Origin: Betaproteobacteria bacterium RBG_16_58_11
Lineage (GTDB): Bacteria; Pseudomonadota; Gammaproteobacteria; Burkholderiales; Thiobacteraceae
Reading direction: 5' to 3'
DNA: 11,622 nucleotides
Assembly (NCBI GenBank): GCA_001770235.1
Contig: MEQN01000058.1
Span: 4,625-16,246 of the forward strand
Part shown: piece by piece, positions 1 through 11,409 of the stretch
How positions within the stretch are numbered: the first letter of the stretch is position 1
How the letters are laid out: each line of letters starts with the position of its first letter
The notes under the pieces: model-generated
What the model saw: only the letters and a program-made list of their open reading frames with translations
The model's database searches: none
Told to the model about the DNA's origin: nothing
Made by a program: the position numbers and the translations under genes

Positions 1-938
1 ACCTGCCTCACCGTAAAAGTGACATCCAGAATGGCATCGAGCGCATGGGTCGAGGTTTCCATCCATTGGGCGCCGCTTTGGGAATAATTTCCGGTAGCCG
101 CCTCCTCATAGACCTTCCGGCGCACGTCGTTGAACCGGCCCAGAAAAAGCGTTTCCATCCGGCGCACCGAATCGGCGATGCGCGGATCGGTGTGTTTCAA
201 TTCGGCAATCGCCTGGATATCGAAAATGCTGCGATCGACTACGCCGCGCGTTGCCTTGAGTTCGTCCAGCACGGACGGCGGCAGGGGGAGACGGGCGCTG
301 ATGTAGTAAGCCAGCATGCCGCGCTCGCGCCCGGCATGCTCGCTGGCCAGCCAAACCCAGTGCTTGAGCGACATGTTGATTTGCGCCACATGGAGCGGCG
401 TATCCAGGGGGTGGAAGGCCGCCTCGCGCAAGCGCGCGGAAAGGCCGATAAAGCGCGTCATGGTGGCCAGCCAGGACTCGGCCTGATAAGCGCAGTCATT
501 GCCTTTCAGGCAAGCATCCACAAGAGTGCGCGCCGAACTCAGGTTGGCGAATTCCCGTTGCGCTTGCCGGATGGTGGCAGCCAGCGCGGAATCCTCTTCC
601 AGATTGGCAGACAAGCGTTGCGCCAGCGCCAGCGCCTTGTTCCACTCCGCATCCCCGCTCGTGCGCAACTGGGTAAGCATTCCGGTGGCTTCAGCATGGC
701 GGAAAGCCAGGCGCCCCAGCATGCCCGCTGTCAGCCCGCGCTCTACCGCGTGGATTCCGGCGGCCTTGATCAGATGGTCCGCCATCTGATTCGCATGGAC
801 CATGTCGCGCGCGGCGCGATTTTCGAAAAAGGCGTCCCACGCCCGCTCCCCGGTGAGGAGCAGGACAAAGAATGCCAGCGTGACAATGGCAAAATTGATG
901 GTGGCGCGGTGGTCGGTAATTCGGAATATCCCGGTTAA
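1..938 (-). CDS. Membrane sensor, N-terminal part (NIT-like periplasmic domain), partial at left edge
   Basis: About 310 residues can be read before the frame leaves the window. A short basic N-terminus is followed by one membrane segment (INFAIVTLAFFVLLL) and then a long, mostly helical region. The ERGLTAGML motif shortly after the membrane and the QWMETSTHALDAI motif near the edge resemble the beginning and end of NIT (nitrate/nitrite-sensing type) extracytoplasmic domains found in chemoreceptors, histidine kinases and GGDEF proteins. Those families normally continue with a second membrane segment and an output domain, here off the window, so the output type is unknown and the ligand need not be nitrate. 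The frame is open from 938 but has no ATG, GTG or TTG before the membrane segment. The first in-frame ATG (801-803) lies after it and has no ribosome site. The end coordinate is the limit of the open frame, not a chosen start. The gene follows the WaaF-HDOD gene on the same strand after about 100 bp and may share its transcript. Confidence 0.72.
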
Positions 939-1036: not shown

Positions 1037-3079
1037 CTAGTCGAAGGCATGGACGAACTGTCCAAGCTCCTCCTTGGTTTCCTGCAGCAGTGCTTGGCAG
1101 CTCTCGCTCTGCAGATTGAGACGGGTGAGCGCCAGCGGCGCCGTGTCCCAATCCATCTCCTGGATTTTGCCGGCATGATAGACGCCATCCAGAAAATCGG
1201 CGGCGGTGACGATGTCGGTCAAATCCGCGGGGCCGCGGTGGGTGCGTTGGGTATCCCGATGATCTCTGACCGCGAGATCGATTTCTTCGGGAATTTCCCA
1301 GCTTTCCAGGATGGCTTCGCCGACATCGGCATGCCATTGATCCACGACTTCCCACAGGGCCGCTTCGTTGTTGAATAGCTCGGGGTAGTCGCGCGCGCGA
1401 TTCAGAATATAAAACTTGCCGATATCATGCAGCAGCCCCGCCAGCATCGCCGTATCCGCGTTGATCCGGGTCAGCCGCTTTGCGCACACGAAGCATAGCG
1501 CGGCGACACGGATGCTGCGTTTCCACACGCCTTCGATCACCGGCGGGGTGACGCCGTGAACCTTGCCCTCCATCAATTGCCGCATGCCAACTGAAATGGC
1601 GACGTTTTGCACCATGGTATAACCCAGACGCACCACGGCGACATGCAGATCGGCAACCGGCTTGCCGCCCATGCTGAAGGCGGCGGCATTGCACAGCCGC
1701 AATAGCTGGGCGGACAGCACCGGTTCGGCGCCGACGATGTGCACTATTTTATCGGTGGAGGCGTTGGGGTCGTGCAGCGCATGCCGGATGCGCATGGTGA
1801 TGTTGATCGAAGTCGGGAAAACCAGTTTCTTTGAGGAAAGCTCTGTCGCCAGGCCTTCGATAAATTCGAATCCGCTGGATTGTCCTGCTCGCGGCGCGGC
1901 GGTGACGGGTGGGGGCTGCTGCGCGATTTCCTTTTTGGGCGCGGCCGGCGCCGGCGCGGCGATTTTTGGGGGAACCGTTTCCGTGCGGACTTTTTCCGGC
2001 GCGGGGGTTGGGGGCCGCTGATGAACCGCCGCCAGGATGTCGTTGAATACACGTTGGGGATGGATATCTTTCATGCAGGCGAAGTGTCCGAGCGGGCATT
2101 CGCGCTTCAAACAGGGGCTGCACGGCAGCTTGAGGCTGATGATCCGGGCCTGGGTGGACAGGGGAGGGGAGACGCTGGGGCTGGATGAGCCGTAGAGCGC
2201 GAACAGCGGCTTGCCGAGCGCGGCGGCCACATGCATCAAGCCGGAGTCGTTCACGACGGCGGCGCGCGCGACGGCGAACAGATCGACGGTCTCGGCCAGG
2301 TCGGCTTTGCCGCACAGGTTATGAAATTTTCGGGTTTTCCCGTGGCCGTGCTGGATCGATTTCTTGACGCGCGCGACCGCGAGCAGCCGTTCGATTTCCG
2401 CGCCGGTTTCCACATCTTCATCCGAGCCAAGCAGCCAGATTTCGTAGCCCGCTCCAGCCAGATTCCACGCCAGCTCGGCGAAGTGATGCGCCGGCCAGCG
2501 CCGGGCCGGGCCGCCTTCCGCGCCGACGCACAAGGCCACCACGGGACTGGCCGGGGCGAGGGCCAGCTTGGCGAGGATTGCGCGCACATGGCTCATCTCG
2601 GTGCGCAGGCGGGGAGGATCAACCGGGCGGTGCGCGTCGATATGGCGCCGGCCCGCCAAAGCAACGAAGCGCTCCACGGTCAGCGCCTTTTTATCCGGGC
2701 TGCGCAAGTCATTCAGCAGGAGAGCGCGCATCGCCCCGCCAAAGCCGGTGCGCAGCGGAATGCCCGCCAGATACGGAATCAGCGCGGCGGTAAACGAGCC
2801 GGGCAGAACAAGGGCGCGAACGTAGCCTTCGCGCTTCAGTTGCCGCGCCAAGCGCCAGCATGCCTTGAGACTGAAATGCCCCTCAATGAGCGGGCTGGGA
2901 ATAGCGCGCCCGATTTCCGCCATGCGCCACAGCAGGGGAACGATCGCGGCGGGTGCGAGCACATCAATCGCTGCATCGGGATGCTGCTCACGCAAGCGCC
3001 GCAACAAGGGCTCAAGCATCATGGCGTCGCCGATCGCGGCGGGGGCAATGACCAGGACTTTTAGCATGGGACTTTTCAT
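1037..3079 (-). CDS. WaaF-like LPS heptosyltransferase fused to a C-terminal HDOD domain
   Basis: Residues 5-355 form a complete glycosyltransferase family 9 heptosyltransferase most like WaaF (heptosyltransferase II), which adds the second L-glycero-D-manno-heptose to the LPS inner core on the cytoplasmic face of the inner membrane. Visible hallmarks are IGDAMM with the likely catalytic Asp18, LPGSFTAALIPYLAGIPLRTGF (92-113), GAEGGPARRWP (186-196), NDSGLMHVAAALGKP (277-291) and the Cys-containing CPLGHFACM tail (328-336). Residues 355-400 are a Pro/Ala/Lys linker. Residues about 405-635 are an HDOD domain: FPTSINITMRIRHAL (421-435), LSAQLLRLCNAAAF (455-468), GLLHDIGKF (548-556) and a late AADFLDGV. 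WaaF proteins usually end near residue 350, so the rest is extra. The start at 3079 is supported by GAGG five bases upstream; Met5 at 3067 lacks such a site. The transferase assignment is strong. The fusion is seen directly, and its function is unknown. Confidence 0.92.
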   Translation of the reverse strand: MKSPMLKVLVIAPAAIGDAMMLEPLLRRLREQHPDAAIDVLAPAAIVPLLWRMAEIGRAIPSPLIEGHFSLKACWRLARQLKREGYVRALVLPGSFTAALIPYLAGIPLRTGFGGAMRALLLNDLRSPDKKALTVERFVALAGRRHIDAHRPVDPPRLRTEMSHVRAILAKLALAPASPVVALCVGAEGGPARRWPAHHFAELAWNLAGAGYEIWLLGSDEDVETGAEIERLLAVARVKKSIQHGHGKTRKFHNLCGKADLAETVDLFAVARAAVVNDSGLMHVAAALGKPLFALYGSSSPSVSPPLSTQARIISLKLPCSPCLKRECPLGHFACMKDIHPQRVFNDILAAVHQRPPTPAPEKVRTETVPPKIAAPAPAAPKKEIAQQPPPVTAAPRAGQSSGFEFIEGLATELSSKKLVFPTSINITMRIRHALHDPNASTDKIVHIVGAEPVLSAQLLRLCNAAAFSMGGKPVADLHVAVVRLGYTMVQNVAISVGMRQLMEGKVHGVTPPVIEGVWKRSIRVAALCFVCAKRLTRINADTAMLAGLLHDIGKFYILNRARDYPELFNNEAALWEVVDQWHADVGEAILESWEIPEEIDLAVRDHRDTQRTHRGPADLTDIVTAADFLDGVYHAGKIQEMDWDTAPLALTRLNLQSESCQALLQETKEELGQFVHAFD

Positions 3080-3210: not shown

Positions 3211-4821
3211 ATGCTGCGTTTAACTGAACTCCATCTTCCGCTTGACCATGCCGAATCCGATCTCCCAGCCGCGATTCTCGCGCGGCTGAAAATCGGCGCG
3301 GACGCGCTGCTGGGCTATACGATCTTCCGGCGCAGTTTTGATGCGCGCAAAAAGCATGCGATCAAGGCGATTTATACGCTGGACGTCACGCTCAAGGATG
3401 AAGCGCAAATCCTGGAACGCCTGCACGCCGAGCCGCATGTCGCGATCACGCCCGATACCGAATACCGTTTCGTTGCGCGAGCGCCGAGCGGGCTCAGCTC
3501 ACGCCCGGTGGTGATCGGCACTGGCCCCTGCGGGCTGTTTGCCGCGTTGATTCTGGCGCAGATGGGCTTTCGCCCGATTGTTCTGGAGCGGGGCAAGATC
3601 GTGCGCGAGCGCACCAAGGATACCTTCGGCCTGTGGCGCGGCCGCACGCTCGACCCGGAATCGAATGTGCAATTCGGCGAGGGCGGCGCGGGCACGTTTT
3701 CCGACGGCAAGCTGCACAGCCAAATCAAAGACCCGCATCACTATGGGCGCAAGGTGCTGCAGGAATTCGTGAAGGCCGATGCGCCGCCGGAAATCCTGTA
3801 TGTGAGCAAACCGCATATCGGCACGTTCCGGCTGGTGAAGGTGGTGGAAAACATGCGCGCGACGATTTGCGCGCTCGGCGGCGAATTTCGTTTCCAGAGC
3901 AGAGTAGCGGATATCGAAATCGACCAGGGCCAGGTGCGCGGCGTGGTGCTCGCCGATGGTGAACGCATCGCCGCCGAGCAGGTGGTGCTGGCGGTCGGCC
4001 ACAGCGCGCGCGATACTTTCCAGATGCTGCATGCACGCGGCGTGTATGTGGAGGCCAAACCTTTTTCCATCGGTTTCCGCATCGAGCATCCGCAATCGAT
4101 GATCGATGCCTGCCGCTACGGCGCTAACGCGGGCAACCCGCTGCTGGGCGCGGCCGACTACAAGCTGGTGCACCACGCCGGCAATGGGCGCTCGGTCTAT
4201 AGTTTCTGCATGTGCCCGGGCGGCACGGTGGTGGCGGCCACCTCGGAGCCGGGACGGGTCGTGACCAACGGCATGAGCCAATATTCGCGCAACGAGCGCA
4301 ACGCCAACAGCGGCATCGTGGTCGGCATCACGCCGGATGATTATCCGGGCTCGCCCTTGGCGGGGATCGATTTTCAGCGCCGGTGGGAGTCGCGCGCCTT
4401 TGAATTGGGCGGGGGCAATTACGATGCGCCGGGACAGCTCGTCGGCGATTTTCTCGCGCATCGCCCCTCCACCGCCCTGGGCTCGGTCATCCCCTCCTAC
4501 CAGCCCGGCGTGCATCTGGGCGAGCTCGATTCATCCTTGCCGGATTATGCGATCGAGGCGATCCGCGAAGCGCTGCCCGCCTTCGACAAGCAGATCAAAG
4601 GTTTTGCCATGCAGGATGCGGTGCTGACCGGGGTGGAGACACGCACCTCATCACCGATCCGCATCAAGCGCAACGCGCATTACCAGAGCGTGAATACCCA
4701 AGGCCTGTACCCCGCCGGCGAAGGCGCGGGCTATGCGGGCGGGATTCTTTCCTCCGCGGTGGACGGCATCAAGGTGGCGGAGGCCGTGGCCTTGAGCATG
4801 CTGGAAAAAGCGCGAAGTTAA
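3211..4821 (+). CDS. FAD-dependent oxidoreductase, uncharacterised COG2509-type family
   Basis: A 536-residue soluble flavoprotein. A dinucleotide-binding Rossmann motif, VVIGTGPCGLFAALILA, lies at about 100-116 after a roughly 95-residue N-terminal region, followed by VLERG (124-128). The family-typical NVQFGEGGAGTFSDGKLHS is at 152-170, and AGEGAGYAGGILSSAVDGIKVAE near the C-terminus is the second FAD-contacting segment. This order, with an N-terminal module before the FAD fold, matches the widespread family annotated as FAD-dependent dehydrogenase (COG2509). To my knowledge its substrate is not established. There is no signal peptide or membrane segment, so it is probably cytoplasmic. The start at 3211 matches the family's N-terminal pattern, although the ribosome site is weak (GGA about 10 bases upstream). 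Its stop codon overlaps that of the convergent MFS gene. Confidence 0.9.
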   Translation: MLRLTELHLPLDHAESDLPAAILARLKIGADALLGYTIFRRSFDARKKHAIKAIYTLDVTLKDEAQILERLHAEPHVAITPDTEYRFVARAPSGLSSRPVVIGTGPCGLFAALILAQMGFRPIVLERGKIVRERTKDTFGLWRGRTLDPESNVQFGEGGAGTFSDGKLHSQIKDPHHYGRKVLQEFVKADAPPEILYVSKPHIGTFRLVKVVENMRATICALGGEFRFQSRVADIEIDQGQVRGVVLADGERIAAEQVVLAVGHSARDTFQMLHARGVYVEAKPFSIGFRIEHPQSMIDACRYGANAGNPLLGAADYKLVHHAGNGRSVYSFCMCPGGTVVAATSEPGRVVTNGMSQYSRNERNANSGIVVGITPDDYPGSPLAGIDFQRRWESRAFELGGGNYDAPGQLVGDFLAHRPSTALGSVIPSYQPGVHLGELDSSLPDYAIEAIREALPAFDKQIKGFAMQDAVLTGVETRTSSPIRIKRNAHYQSVNTQGLYPAGEGAGYAGGILSSAVDGIKVAEAVALSMLEKARS

Positions 4822-6148: not shown

Positions 6149-7261
6149 CTACTTGAGTTTATGCCCACAGCTGCCGCAGAACACGTCATCGCTAGTGATG
6201 GCAGCATTGCATTGGGGACAGGTCGATAGACTTTCTGCAGGCGGCTGTGCTGTCGAAGTCTCCGGTCGCCGCATCGACTGCTCCGCGCGCGCCTTGGCTT
6301 CGTCCATCCGTCGCTTCGCATCCGACATACGCTGCTGCATCATCTCTTCGGCTTGGTTGAAATCAAGCCCTTCAATTACCTGGAGGTAGATCAGGCAGCT
6401 ACCCAGCATAACGATTGCCACGGGAATCGTAAGGCCAATGGCAAACAACAAGGCTGTTCCAAAACCTGCGGCGACCAGATACCCCCCACCGCCACCACCG
6501 CCGTATTCTCCATAACCCCCCACCATCGGCGTGAACATACCCATGCCAGGCAAACCCATGCTTGTACCCAGCACCGGCGCGGAAACTGCCCCGGTGGTCA
6601 TCACCCCCATGAAGACCACCTGGAAGACTACAAAGCTCGCGAATGCCGTCAGCAACATCAGCAGCAATGAGCTAACTAAAACCGCCAAGCCACGCTGCTT
6701 ACTCACTACCCACAATCGGGAAATCGTAGGCAGCACGCCATTGCCGTCCCAGATGGATGGCGCAGCGATGGTGTTGCCGATATAAAACATCGCAAACAAG
6801 CCCAAACCGGTAAGGGCTGCTGCCACAGGAAAAGCGATGGCGTACAGCGCCGGGCCTATACCAGGAATTTTGCAAACCAGGAAAACGAGCGCGAGAACGA
6901 TGAGCCAGACGATGATTGCCAACAACTCAAGCAGCAGCACCCCCAACAGTCTGAAGGCGCTGAACACCCCGCCCAACAGCGCATCCACGAAACTGCGCAA
7001 TGGCGTACCCCTAGCCTGATCCATGAACAACAACCCAGCGGCTTGAAGACCACACACACCCACTGTAAGCGCGATTAAACCCATCAACCCCGCGATCACC
7101 CCCGAGCCCATTTTGGCACCCAGCACGCCGGCAAGAAACATCACCAGCGCAACCATCGCGCCAGTCGCAAAGAGCACTAACAGCGCACGCCAGTTATTGA
7201 TGGCCTCCAGCGCATTCAGCAGGCCCCGCGATTTGGAAAAATGTTCGGATATCGATGTCAT
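6149..7261 (-). CDS. Polytopic membrane protein with C-terminal zinc ribbon, function unknown
   Basis: 370 residues. About five to seven hydrophobic segments lie between residues 26 and 296, for example 26-46, 54-80, 98-130, 138-162, 192-222 and 262-296. A glycine-rich loop with seven consecutive Gly (254-260) precedes the last one. A charged helical segment with coiled-coil character follows (303-332). The protein ends in one zinc ribbon, CPQC-x10-CGSC (Cys348, 351, 362, 365). The ribbon and helix are likely cytoplasmic. The ATG at 7261 is preceded by a GGGGAGGGG ribosome site. I do not recognise a named family. The ribbon closely resembles the second ribbon of the upstream neighbour (both CPxC-x10-CxxCGHxL), and the two genes share strand and ribosome-site style, suggesting one operon and a joint role. 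Confidence 0.85.
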   Translation of the reverse strand: MTSISEHFSKSRGLLNALEAINNWRALLVLFATGAMVALVMFLAGVLGAKMGSGVIAGLMGLIALTVGVCGLQAAGLLFMDQARGTPLRSFVDALLGGVFSAFRLLGVLLLELLAIIVWLIVLALVFLVCKIPGIGPALYAIAFPVAAALTGLGLFAMFYIGNTIAAPSIWDGNGVLPTISRLWVVSKQRGLAVLVSSLLLMLLTAFASFVVFQVVFMGVMTTGAVSAPVLGTSMGLPGMGMFTPMVGGYGEYGGGGGGGYLVAAGFGTALLFAIGLTIPVAIVMLGSCLIYLQVIEGLDFNQAEEMMQQRMSDAKRRMDEAKARAEQSMRRPETSTAQPPAESLSTCPQCNAAITSDDVFCGSCGHKLK

Positions 7262-7345: not shown

Positions 7346-8269
7346 TTACCTCTCACAACCAGGCTTGCTCGCGTCCCACACGCCATTGACCGAGCAGTAC
7401 TTCCATTTCACCTGTTCCGTGCAAATACCCCGCCCCAAGAACCCTTTCGTCCTGCACGCATCTAGCTCGCGCTCAAAATTTGATTTATCTGATGACGTGG
7501 TAGAGGGGGCGGGATTTGGCTTAGCGGATTCCGCTGTAACGGGTTGGCCGTCTTGGGTGGACGTAGCTGGCGGTTGTGCCTTCTTAACCACAGGTGTTGA
7601 AGGTTGTTTATCTGCACCGGCTGGCTTAGGCACAGTGGGTGACTTCTTGGCGTTCTCGGATGGAGAAACCGGTTTTGTCTCAGCCGCCTTGGAGCTAGAT
7701 AAAGGTGCTTGAGCGCTGGGGCTGTCTGACGGCTTGGTTGCGTCCGGCATGGCTGCGGGCGGCTTCGCCTCATTTTTCTGCTCAGGCGCTGTAACTGGCG
7801 CAACACTTGAAGGCGCAGGGGCCTTCGCATATCTGCCAAACAAGATATATCCAGTAAGCGAAATTGCAACGATCCCGATCACACCTGCCAGCCATAACAC
7901 CATCTTGGATGGTGCTTTAGGTGGAGCCTCGTCTGCATTTGCGAGGGGCGGGTCTTGAAGCGTATGACTTTGTGCTGGCGCAGGAGTAATAGCTGGCGCC
8001 TCGTGCTCCTCAGAAACCGATGGGGCGGCGGCTGGAATCTGGCGCACCTTAGGCTCGGATGTCACCGCCGCCGTAGGTGATGCTGTTCTCTTCGCTAGCC
8101 CATGCCCACACGCTACGCAAAAAGCTGCGCCGGCTTTATTGGCTGCGCCACATTCGGGGCAATCAACCGAATCTGCCGCCACAGGCGCTGACGCCGACAA
8201 TGTCGCGCCACAATGTTTACAGAATCGTGCACCTTCTGAATTTTCTCCACCACAAGCAGAGCATTTCAT
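7346..8269 (-). CDS. Single-span membrane protein with two N-terminal zinc ribbons, function unknown
   Basis: 307 residues. Two zinc ribbons open the protein: Cys3, 6, 17, 20 and Cys37, 40, 51, 54, both CxxC-x10-CxxC. A variable Pro/Ala-rich segment leads to one membrane helix (123-143), then about 115 residues rich in Pro, Ala, Lys and Ser. A compact C-terminal module follows, with four cysteines spaced C-x10-C-x8-C-x12-C (272, 283, 292, 305). There is no signal peptide, so the ribbons should be cytoplasmic and the C-terminal module periplasmic, where its cysteines could form disulfides (inference). Similar short four-cysteine tails occur on zinc-ribbon proteins of Betaproteobacteria, without known function. 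The frame is open to a GTG at 8311, but ATG 8269 is chosen because AGGGAGGGG lies just upstream and the first ribbon begins right after it. Confidence 0.87.
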   Translation of the reverse strand: MKCSACGGENSEGARFCKHCGATLSASAPVAADSVDCPECGAANKAGAAFCVACGHGLAKRTASPTAAVTSEPKVRQIPAAAPSVSEEHEAPAITPAPAQSHTLQDPPLANADEAPPKAPSKMVLWLAGVIGIVAISLTGYILFGRYAKAPAPSSVAPVTAPEQKNEAKPPAAMPDATKPSDSPSAQAPLSSSKAAETKPVSPSENAKKSPTVPKPAGADKQPSTPVVKKAQPPATSTQDGQPVTAESAKPNPAPSTTSSDKSNFERELDACRTKGFLGRGICTEQVKWKYCSVNGVWDASKPGCER

Positions 8270-8420
8270 GCTCAACCCCTCCCTTAAAACAAATCCGATT
8301 CGTAATAACACCCACTTTATATTTGTTAGAACTGAAGCTTGTAGCTGGAAAACTATACACCGATCTGATCATTGGCTCACCCACCCGCCTGCGGGATAAC
8401 GACGCGCGGCATAGGCGCGA
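8270..8420. other. Intergenic region upstream of the zinc-ribbon operon
   Basis: This AT-richer stretch between the terminator and the ATG at 8269 should hold the promoter of the zinc-ribbon genes. On the minus strand a TATAAA and a TATAGT are present as -10-like hexamers, but neither has a good -35 partner. Only the ribosome site at its end is clear. Confidence 0.3.
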
Positions 8421-9169: not shown

Positions 9170-9601
9170 TTACTTCCCCCCGCCATTGCCCGTTAAGTCT
9201 TGCACATCGGGCACTTGGAAAACCCCTTGCAGGTTCAGCAGCTCATCGCGGTGCTCCCGTGCGAGCTTCTGAAGAATTTTTTCGCCCGCCGGGGTGAGAT
9301 GCACCTCCACCTCACGCCGGTCTGCACGGCCTTGCGCCCGGTAGACCAGCCCCAGTTTTTCACAGCGCGACACCAGGGATACGACGCCATGGTGATGGGC
9401 CTGCAAGCGCTCGGAAAGCTCGCCGATGGTCGCCCATTCCCGGCCGTGATAACCCTTGAGGTGAAGCAGCAGCAGATACTGGAGGTGAGTAATGCCGTAC
9501 TGTCGGGTAAGCTCCTCGCTAAAACGCAGAAAAAGCCGCAATTGGTAGCGAAAGCCGGAGAGTGTTTCGAATTCCTGCTTTTTAAGTGCGCCCTTGCTCA
9601 T
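9170..9601 (-). CDS. MarR-family transcriptional regulator
   Basis: A 143-residue winged-helix protein of normal MarR length. The N-terminal helix (about 14-35) and the C-terminal helices (about 104-125) would form the dimer interface. The helix-turn-helix lies at about 56-85 (ATIGELSERLQ, then HHHGVVSLVSRCEKLGLV), and the wing carries the family DRR motif (QGRADRREVEVHLTPAGEKIL, 90-110). Such proteins usually bind a palindrome at their own promoter as dimers and release it on ligand binding or thiol oxidation. Cys80 is the only cysteine, in the recognition region. The gene is divergent from the DsrC/TusE-like gene, and a perfect 23-bp palindrome lies between them, so it probably represses both (inference). 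The start at 9601 has only a weak GGG site about 12 bases upstream. The stop lies close to the tRNA-Arg end. Confidence 0.9.
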   Translation of the reverse strand: MSKGALKKQEFETLSGFRYQLRLFLRFSEELTRQYGITHLQYLLLLHLKGYHGREWATIGELSERLQAHHHGVVSLVSRCEKLGLVYRAQGRADRREVEVHLTPAGEKILQKLAREHRDELLNLQGVFQVPDVQDLTGNGGGK

Positions 9602-9655
9602 CTTTTGATGCTACCCATATGAGTACCTTCCGCTTACCTCTACCGCACCGTTCAA

Positions 9656-9678
9656 AATATATCATAGTATGATATATT
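9656..9678. promoter_or_regulatory. 23-bp perfect palindrome, probable MarR operator
   Basis: AATATATCATA (9656-9666) and its exact reverse complement TATGATATATT (9668-9678) flank a single central G. The centre lies 66 bases from the MarR start codon and 56 bases from the DsrC-like start codon. On the plus strand TTCAAA (9651-9656), a 16-base spacer and TATATT (9673-9678) make a plausible promoter lying inside the palindrome, so a bound dimer would block RNA polymerase. An opposite-strand promoter (TATGAT as -10, weak -35) could overlap it too. Confidence 0.72.
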
Positions 9679-9722
9679 AATTATGTGGCTGTTTGGCTTG
9701 TCCTTTTTTTGTGGAGGTTATG

Positions 9723-10049
9723 ATGGAAATGTCTTTCCCCTTGCCGGCCCTTGATGCGGAAGGCTACTTGGTGGAACCGCAGGATTGGACCCCGGCGCTA
9801 GCGGAAGAATTCGCCCGTCAGGAAAATATCCAACTCGGCGAGGACCACTGGGATGTGATCCACTTTATGCGCGAATATTACGAGGAGCATCAAGTCATCC
9901 CGGACGCGCGCTTCGCCATCAAGCACCTGTCGGCACGGCTGGGAATGGCGGCGCGCAAACGATTATTCGAGTTATTTCCCTATGGCTACGTCAAGCAGGC
10001 ATGCCGGATCGCCGGCATGAAACGGCCCCGCGGGTGGAGCACGGGCTGA
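9723..10049 (+). CDS. DsrC/TusE-family sulfur-relay-like protein lacking the C-terminal CysA
   Basis: 108 residues, close to the usual length of TusE and DsrC. Family motifs run throughout: LDAEGYLVEPQDWTPALAEEFA (10-31), DHWDVIHFMREYYEEHQVIP (41-60), the basic residues of DARFAIKHL (61-69), LFELFPYG (81-88) and KQACRIAG (91-98). DsrC carries sulfur on a near-C-terminal cysteine (CysA) and forms a disulfide or trisulfide with the cysteine of the ACKIAG motif (CysB). TusE, which serves tRNA 2-thiouridine synthesis, keeps only CysA. Here CysB is present (Cys94), but CysA is Trp105, followed by three residues (STG) instead of one. Normal sulfur carriage on CysA is therefore impossible, and a regulatory or thiol-sensing role is an inference. 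ATG 9723 is chosen because GGAGG (9713-9717) lies five bases upstream. ATG 9720 is too close, and TTG 9693 would add ten unrelated residues. Confidence 0.88.
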   Translation: MEMSFPLPALDAEGYLVEPQDWTPALAEEFARQENIQLGEDHWDVIHFMREYYEEHQVIPDARFAIKHLSARLGMAARKRLFELFPYGYVKQACRIAGMKRPRGWSTG

Positions 10050-10068: not shown

Positions 10069-11409
10069 TTAAAGCACGTACCGCGCCAAATCCTCGCTTT
10101 TTGCCAAGGCTTGCAGCTTGCCGTTCACATATGCCGCGTCGATGGTAACGGTCACGCCGCTCTGTTTGTCCGCCTCGAACGCCAACTCTTCCAATAGCTT
10201 TTCGATCACGGTGTAAAGCCTGCGCGCGCCGATGTTTTCGGTGCGCTCGTTGACCTCGAATGCGATCTCGGCCATGCGTTGGATACCGTCGCCGGTGAAT
10301 TCCAAATGCACGCCCTCGGTTGCAAGCAGCGCTTGGTATTGGCGGGTGAGGCAGGCATCGGTGCTGGTCAGGATGCGCGCGAAATCATCCACCGTGAGCG
10401 AGTTGAGTTCGACCCGAATCGGAAACCGGCCTTGCAGCTCGGGAATCAAATCCGACGGCTTGGCAAGATGAAATGCGCCGCTGCCGATGAACAGGATGTG
10501 ATCGGTTTTGACCATGCCGTATTTGGTGCTGACCGTGGTGCCTTCGACCAGCGGCAGCAAATCGCGCTGCACGCCTTGACGCGATACCTCCGCGCCGCCG
10601 GTTTCGCCGCGGCTGGGGATTTTGTCAATCTCGTCCAGAAACACGATGCCGTTCTGCTCGACGTTTTTCACCGCATCATGCTTGAGGTCGTCCTCGTTCA
10701 CCATCTTCAGCGCTTCTTCCTCGGTGAGCAGCTTGAACGCTTCGCGCACCGTGAGTTTGCGCTGCTTCTTGCGCCCGCCGCCGAGGTTTTGGAACATGCC
10801 TTGTAGTTGCTCGGTCATGTCTTCCATGCCGGGTGGGGCGAAGATTTCCATATGCGCGCTCGCGGCGCTTACTTCAATTTCAATTTCCTTGTCGTCGAGC
10901 TTGCCCTCGCGCAGCATTTTGCGGAATTTCTGCCGCGTGGCGCTCTCTTCCGGCTTGAGCTCGGGCTCCTCGCCGAACCCGAAACCGCCCTCGCGCGCCG
11001 GCGGCAGCAGCGCATCGAGCACACGCTCTTCGGCCATCTCTTCGGCGCGGAATTGCACCTGTTGGGTCGCCTGCTCGCGCGCTTGTTTCACCGCCATCTC
11101 GACCAGATCACGAATAATCGTATCCACATCGCGCCCGACGTAACCGACTTCGGTGAATTTTGTCGCTTCGATCTTGATGAAGGGCGCATCGGCCAGCCGC
11201 GCCAAGCGGCGCGCGATCTCAGTTTTACCCACACCGGTGGGGCCGATCATCAGGATATTTTTCGGGGTGATTTCCTGGCGCAGCGGCTCCGCCACTTGGG
11301 CTCTACGCCAGCGGTTGCGCAGCGCAATCGCCACCGCGCGCTTCGCCGCGTCTTGGCCGACGATGTGTTTATCCAGTTCGTGGACGATTTCTTTGGGGGT
11401 CATTTGCAT
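10069..11409 (-). CDS. hslU: ATP-dependent protease ATPase subunit HslU
   Basis: 446 residues, the usual length. HslU is the AAA+ unfoldase that forms hexameric rings on the HslV peptidase and feeds it unfolded substrates in the cytoplasm. Visible are the N-terminal [15 protein letters not shown], Walker A GPTGVGKT (56-63), pore motif GYVG (89-92) and a charged intermediate domain (about 110-240). Walker B IVFLDE lies at 255-260, followed by the arginine-finger region LQGRFPIR (325-332), sensor-2 GARRL (394-398) and the C-terminal tail ending RYVL, the part that docks into HslV. Translation may begin at 11409 or at the second Met (11403); neither has a clear ribosome site. It follows hslV by 27 bases, the standard order. 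Its stop is 19 bases from that of the convergent DsrC-like gene, and no terminator is visible between them. Confidence 0.98.

Follow-up and report, generated by a model that had tools for sequence, protein, structure and literature searches.

What would a bacterium do with a WaaF-type heptosyltransferase that is carried in one chain with an HDOD domain? The question is raised by a gene at 1037..3079, on the minus strand, of an 11,622-nucleotide stretch of contig MEQN01000058.1 from Betaproteobacteria bacterium RBG_16_58_11 (the whole stretch is called the window here), which codes for a WaaF-like part of glycosyltransferase family 9 (GT9), a linker rich in proline and alanine, and an HDOD domain. 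We find that this single-chain fusion is a genuine gene with a transferase half that, judged from its residues, has diverged from the catalytic pattern of its relatives, and we regard it as evenly poised whether the degenerate WaaF is an input module, ligand-binding or regulatory, that serves a non-catalytic HDOD as the output. A GT9 heptosyltransferase joined to an HDOD domain as a putative regulatory input would be a new domain pairing. An earlier reading of the DNA made from its letters alone (the sequence-only reading) had held that no such case was described, and this stands, as a full-text literature search gave no paper on a heptosyltransferase–HDOD fusion; the papers that pair HDOD with a glycosyltransferase were unrelated, as far as their available parts go.

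The frame starts with an ATG at 3079 and runs for 680 residues with no interruption. Pfam places GT9 at residues 75-332 (9.5e-52) and HDOD (PF08668) at residues 422-608 (3.3e-36; 125.1 bits against a gathering score of 22.9 bits), and the NCBIfam model for heptosyltransferase II, TIGR02195, matches residues 7-348 with 368.4 bits, compared to a cut-off of 134.6. Read along the minus strand, the chain consists of a WaaF-like N-lobe (residues 1-175; 2555..3079), which in GT-B enzymes is the acceptor-binding lobe, a WaaF-like C-lobe (residues 176-348; 2036..2554), the lobe that binds ADP-heptose, a linker (residues 349-404; 1868..2035) that is 45% proline plus alanine and varies in length among orthologues, and the HDOD domain (residues 405-680; 1040..1867). 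No in-frame ATG, GTG or TTG is found at residues 341-428, so that the HDOD part alone cannot begin from an in-frame start there, and a promoter and terminator scan gave no promoter-like site on the strand of the gene. Because the window comes from a metagenome-assembled genome (MAG) that is 71% complete, one might suspect that an assembly or sequencing error has joined two genes. We consider the chance of this negligible: two other MAGs (G005 and G006) hold orthologues at 86–89% identity, with the same unbroken frame, linker and domain order, which rules out a missing stop, and the substitution patterns across the junction are those of coding sequence. The sequence-only reading was thus right about the single frame and its coordinates (the strand had gone unstated), about the position of the linker, and about the gene not being a chance read-through.

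The fusion occurs in three of the eight genomes of its genus (g1; G000-G007), namely that of the window (G000), G005 and G006; one of the eight, G002, is only 66% complete. It is absent from both genomes of the sister genus and did not turn up in 22 genomes of family f15 or in 39 of genus g111, and outside g1 there is none among the matches listed for 399 genomes of the order (HDOD query at E <= 1e-25, whole protein at E <= 1e-100), 369 of the class and 398 of the phylum. These samples overlap, and the candidates scored per genome numbered at most six (order, HDOD query), three (class), two (phylum) and two (order, whole protein), few enough that a fusion to a distant HDOD could escape detection, and the rarity applies to the sampled genomes. 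A widespread fusion is rejected on these counts, and so far the gene has been seen in one genus. Two apparent fusions, in G768 and G766, turned out to be separate waaF and HDOD genes that are in-frame neighbours with stop codons between them, and a 624-residue frame in G042 (600 residues from its first start codon) contains an HDOD and no GT9. Ten other WaaF loci from nine genomes, most of them with long open frames, have no C-terminal partner: only 3-24 residues follow the match, and any surplus lies upstream.

Is the fused protein, then, the WaaF with which the cell builds its lipopolysaccharide (LPS)? A stand-alone waaF elsewhere in the genome, for which the sequence-only reading had suggested a search, is present in all three carriers, with a product 51-53% identical to the fused WaaF, and the fusion is therefore rejected as the sole WaaF of the cell. 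With an ordinary WaaF in every carrier, ordinary inner-core synthesis should not depend on the fused copy; the window's genome also encodes HepI-type (364.8 bits) and HepIII-type (315.2 bits) enzymes. The fusion is like the known LPS heptosyltransferase II (WaaF/RfaF; E. coli structure 1psw) in its GT9 sequence, its GT-B fold, its TIGR02195 score over the cut-off and its donor-lobe signature, but unlike it in its added linker and HDOD, its changes at acceptor-lobe invariants, its arginine at the equivalent of Lys192 and, in two of the three orthologues, the loss of the catalytic aspartate. The idea first proposed, that of a WaaF in full working order with an HDOD that controls its activity or location, would agree with a TIGR02195 score that is far over the cut-off (four ordinary relatives, the carriers' stand-alone WaaFs included, reach 462-487 bits) and with a model of the transferase part that matches 1psw (TMt 0.90). 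However, it would be redundant with the ordinary WaaF in all three genomes, and its invariant and catalytic residues are altered, which together make it very improbable. Given the extra copy and the lost acceptor-lobe and catalytic residues, a direct coupling of LPS-core completion to HDOD has become the less likely of the two ideas in the sequence-only reading, and its other suggestion, a new role for the transferase, is favoured.

The AlphaFold2 model, built with 11 sequences of which three include the HDOD, is good over the greater part of the transferase and poor over the HDOD, where the confidence score (pLDDT) is mostly below 50. Foldseek with the transferase part returned WaaC structures in addition to 1psw, confirming the GT9 fold. 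The model of 1037-3079 also matches subunits of the plant chloroplast NDH-PSI supercomplex (9grx_1, 7wff_a, 7f9o_6; prob 1.00, TMt 0.60-0.65), which, going by the model, may be a further case of this fold in a non-enzymatic role.

Though the sequence-only reading had both parts keeping their conserved motifs, this fails for the transferase, in which 11-12 of 61 near-invariant columns are broken. When considering columns conserved in at least 97% of sequences (leave-one-out, n=61), the window's copy breaks 11 and the other two fusions 12 each, compared to a median of 0 (maximum 9) for 53 other WaaFs; the maximum belongs to G327, itself on a long branch, which retains all three catalytic residues, as do all 53. 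At a threshold of at least 90% in the 53 non-fused WaaFs there are 103 columns, 79 of which are kept by all three fusions. The losses lean to the acceptor side: among strictly invariant columns, 5 of 12 in the N-lobe (W15, D18, H66, K97, E116) are altered in at least one fusion, as opposed to 1 of 24 in the C-lobe (K193; Fisher p 0.010), and the window's copy has four of the five N-lobe changes, D18 being unchanged. A clean contrast between the lobes cannot be claimed, as it is significant for the strictly invariant columns and not for the 97% set, where the changes common to all three fusions amount to 7/23 and 4/38 (p 0.08).

The catalytic residues can be placed by comparison to HepI, whose D13, K192 and D261 correspond in a profile alignment to residues 18, 193 and 278 of the fusion. 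The proposed catalytic base, Asp13, is equivalent to Asp18 (codon 3026..3028, minus strand), which is Asp in the window, Gly in G005 and G006, and Asp in 53/53 other WaaFs. Lys192, the lysine near the heptose anomeric carbon, is equivalent to Arg193 (2501..2503, minus strand), Arg in all three fusions and Lys in 53/53 others, and Asp261 to Asp278 of the NDSG motif (2246..2248, minus strand), which is kept in all three fusions and is Asp in 53/53 others. In the available part of a review that covers HepI (PMC5713226), the changes D13A, K192A and D261A are given as lowering activity 4688-, 926- and 2027-fold, the three residues are reported as conserved across the heptosyltransferases compared, and GT-B enzymes are described as binding the donor by the C-terminal domain and the acceptor by the N-terminal one. 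Crystals of an inactive base mutant of the heptosyltransferase TibC, D110A, soaked with ADP-heptose showed ADP-heptose bound, according to the part of that paper at hand (PMC4358343), so that loss of the base does not by itself abolish donor binding.

Going by these alignments, G005 and G006 at least seem able to do without catalysis. The window's own protein is less clear-cut and speaks against a dead enzyme, as it retains Asp18, the change of Lys to Arg at 193 is a conservative one, and Asp278 is retained in all three fusions; it may have residual or altered transfer activity. For this reason we keep in view an active glycosyltransferase with a changed acceptor, one that would have preserved its donor lobe and remodelled its acceptor lobe, with the HDOD localising or regulating the enzyme. 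Mostly intact strict C-lobe columns beside an altered N-lobe are what one would expect if the acceptor alone had changed, and low dN/dS (ratio of nonsynonymous to synonymous substitution rates) in both lobes, the Asp13 equivalent in the window's copy and the Asp261 equivalent in all three point the same way. We nevertheless find this account rather unlikely, since two of the three orthologues have Gly for the proposed base and none keeps the Lys192 equivalent, both being positions that, like Asp261, are reported as conserved among the heptosyltransferases compared (PMC5713226, available part), and Lys97, lost in the fusion, also aligns with a lysine of HepI in the profile alignment.

If the transferase half no longer transfers, is it kept for anything? 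Pairwise dN/dS among the three fusions is 0.26-0.36 for the N-lobe, 0.13-0.25 for the C-lobe, 0.21-0.33 for the linker and 0.12-0.22 for the HDOD, compared to 0.14-0.20 for stand-alone WaaF in four genomes including G003 and 0.13-0.17 for the neighbouring gene for a flavin adenine dinucleotide (FAD)-dependent protein. These ratios indicate that the whole chain is kept as a protein, with the N-lobe as the least constrained folded part. In the WaaF tree the stem of the fused copies measures 0.89 changes per column and the branches inside the fusion clade are short, which suggests a history of a burst of change and then constraint. A structural relic or scaffold, with the HDOD alone functional, would account for the HDOD being the more conserved half (91-93% identity among fusions, as opposed to 85-91% in the two WaaF lobes, besides its low dN/dS) and for the existence of stand-alone relatives of the same HDOD in genus g111. 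Against it, the WaaF half still shows dN/dS of 0.13-0.36, its C-lobe lies near the stand-alone WaaF, and the donor-lobe signature is kept where a relic should decay evenly. We therefore think a mere relic unlikely.

The other half of the chain retains the HD doublet, H551-D552, and has Arg521 in place of the first histidine of the HD superfamily, a site that we take to be a metal ligand in HD proteins. Of 33 aligned HDODs, 28 have that histidine; it is missing from the three fusions, G327 and G528, and the HD-type metal site of the fused HDOD is accordingly incomplete. By sequence, the solved HDOD with the best score is 3i7a. In the available part of PMC6543031, HDOD domains are described as without catalytic activity and their mechanism as not established; the same source presents SadB of Pseudomonas fluorescens as a YbaK-HDOD protein, calls it a negative regulator of motility, and has a section headed 'SadB binds c-di-GMP' (cyclic di-GMP). 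The fusion is like SadB in joining an enzyme-derived N-terminal domain to a non-catalytic HDOD, SadB acting in c-di-GMP signalling as far as that part of the source goes (PMC6543031). It differs in that its N-terminal domain is a heptosyltransferase relative (Pfam finds GT9 and no YbaK, as against the YbaK-like domain of SadB), and in that a c-di-GMP role is suggested by neighbouring genes only. By sequence, then, it would belong with the known proteins made of an enzyme-derived domain plus HDOD, and as the ligand of its enzyme-derived part can be guessed, the link to an HDOD opens the HDOD mechanism to direct tests by binding assays.

A degenerate WaaF feeding an HDOD could work as follows. 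The transferase half would most likely be a pseudo-enzyme input module that binds a ligand; the state of the module would be passed through the probably flexible linker to the non-catalytic HDOD, which would exert its effect through binding to a partner or to a nucleotide second messenger. The preserved C-lobe signature makes ADP-heptose, or a nucleotide sugar akin to it, the natural candidate for the ligand, and c-di-GMP signalling is perhaps the setting, though both ligand and output are what we infer. A bolder version has the protein as a cytoplasmic sensor, a dead WaaF that reads the supply of ADP-heptose or LPS-core precursors and hands it through the HDOD to a network of c-di-GMP and motility. 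This is possible, though we lean against it; if true, such a sensor would link the building blocks of the outer membrane to lifestyle decisions. Literature on ADP-heptose together with c-di-GMP had apparently nothing on point in titles and the starts of abstracts, and a search for pseudoenzyme glycosyltransferase sensors gave no paper.

Where the fusion came from is suggested by another family of the same order, in which genus g16 has the gene order glnE-ilvE-waaF-[X]-hemN (glnE or ilvE falls outside the compared stretch in two contigs). Slot X holds one or two HDOD genes in seven of the 11 genomes with waaF and is empty in four (G331, G151, G770, G357); a twelfth genome, G767 (74% complete), gave no match. 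G768 and G766 have the HDOD frame in phase with waaF, and the other five pairs are out of phase. The g16 WaaFs are 55-58% identical to the fused WaaF, and the HDODs 57-59% (first copy) and 49-50% (second copy) identical to the fused HDOD. These neighbours are thus like the fusion in being the closest WaaF relatives with adjacent HDOD genes, but remain two genes. The four genomes examined have no close WaaF other than this one, which in them keeps the three catalytic residues. The g16 neighbours provide a matched unfused comparison. Relatives with two separate genes, which the sequence-only reading had considered for this locus, are missing from it (G003 has no such gene there) and occur in this other family, as adjacent genes at a different locus. 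In G044 the slot between waaF and hemN (L085:9519-11554) contains a PAS protein and a CZB-domain chemoreceptor, and this spot next to waaF may be a hotspot where signalling genes gather.

A tree built from 56 WaaFs unites the nine stand-alone members of the fusion's own family in one clade (98/95); the fused WaaF stands apart from them, joining four g16 WaaFs and G044 (99/99). The rooted HDOD tree puts the fused HDOD together with stand-alone HDODs of genus g111 (100/100), nested inside the g16 HDODs. From these we consider g16 waaF-hdod neighbours the likely source: a pair of the g16 kind would have become a single gene, an extra copy beside the normal waaF, and its transferase half would then have lost much of the acceptor site, plus the proposed catalytic base in two of three lineages, with the ADP-heptose-binding lobe staying largely intact. 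Two points weigh against so direct a route. The grouping of the fused WaaF with g16 to the exclusion of G044 has a support of only 94/78, with the fused WaaF on a long branch, and the fused HDOD is nearest to the g111 stand-alone HDODs, an approximately unbiased (AU) test rejecting a clade of fused and g16 HDODs without g111 (p 0.0003). A simple story that derives the entire fusion from a single g16 operon is thus supported by the WaaF tree and only partly by the HDOD tree, and the latter with the AU test leaves a single operon fusion unproven. The two halves may be of mixed origin; the most economical reading of the trees would have both descend from a g16-like pair, with g111 taking a related HDOD. 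The data show the fusion itself and its conservation, the low dN/dS, the second and ordinary WaaF, the residues that were lost and the relatives in which the two genes are adjacent but separate; that the transferase has lost its activity and still binds a ligand, how the gene arose and what it signals are what we infer.

The g111 stand-alone HDODs are the nearest to the fused HDOD in the tree (12 rows), and that of G327 shares the Arg for the first HD histidine. Unlike the fusion they have no transferase attached, and waaF lies elsewhere in the genomes where both were listed. At two of four g111 loci compared, the stand-alone HDOD is within about 600 nucleotides of a FliL-like flagellar gene, found by Pfam in G327 (L084:8013-9810) and by tblastn in G798 (L181:7230-9324).

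The insertion site in the window is marked by the divergent gene for the FAD-dependent protein (3211..4821, plus strand). In G003, which is of the same subclade and lacks the fusion, uvrD directly adjoins the FAD gene, and in G005 the two are separated by roughly 3.5 kb that contain the fusion and a PilZNR-PilZ gene. The tree of FAD genes leaves the branching of the four genomes unresolved and is compatible with G003 having lost the block or never having had it. Downstream of the fusion, in the same direction, 3..803 (minus strand) codes for the N-terminal part of an 875-residue PAS-GGDEF-EAL protein that extends past the window (contig C58:2800-5427), and G006 has a 93% identical homologue at this place, on a contig that ends after the GGDEF. 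The G005 gene directly 3′ of the fusion is the PilZNR-PilZ one (YcgR-like; L086:12230-13168).

Such downstream neighbours are a weak hint at c-di-GMP. There are reasons for caution: the neighbours could be there by chance, as the three genomes have 28, 46 and 41 GGDEF matches, and those of G000 and G006 are one homologous case. The gaps from the fusion to the downstream gene are 233 nucleotides (G000), 192 (G005) and 33 or about 200 depending on the start (G006), sizes that leave co-transcription unshown.

The rest of the window has features of its own. Two neighbouring genes on the minus strand (6149-7261 and 7346-8311) code for zinc-ribbon proteins, one hydrophobic with a C-terminal ribbon and one with two N-terminal ribbons, and lack homologues in those stretches of G005, G006 and G003 that were compared. 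At 9170-10049 a MarR-type regulator is divergent from a DsrC-like protein, and the open reading frame beside this pair, at 10069-11409, resembles HslU by eye.

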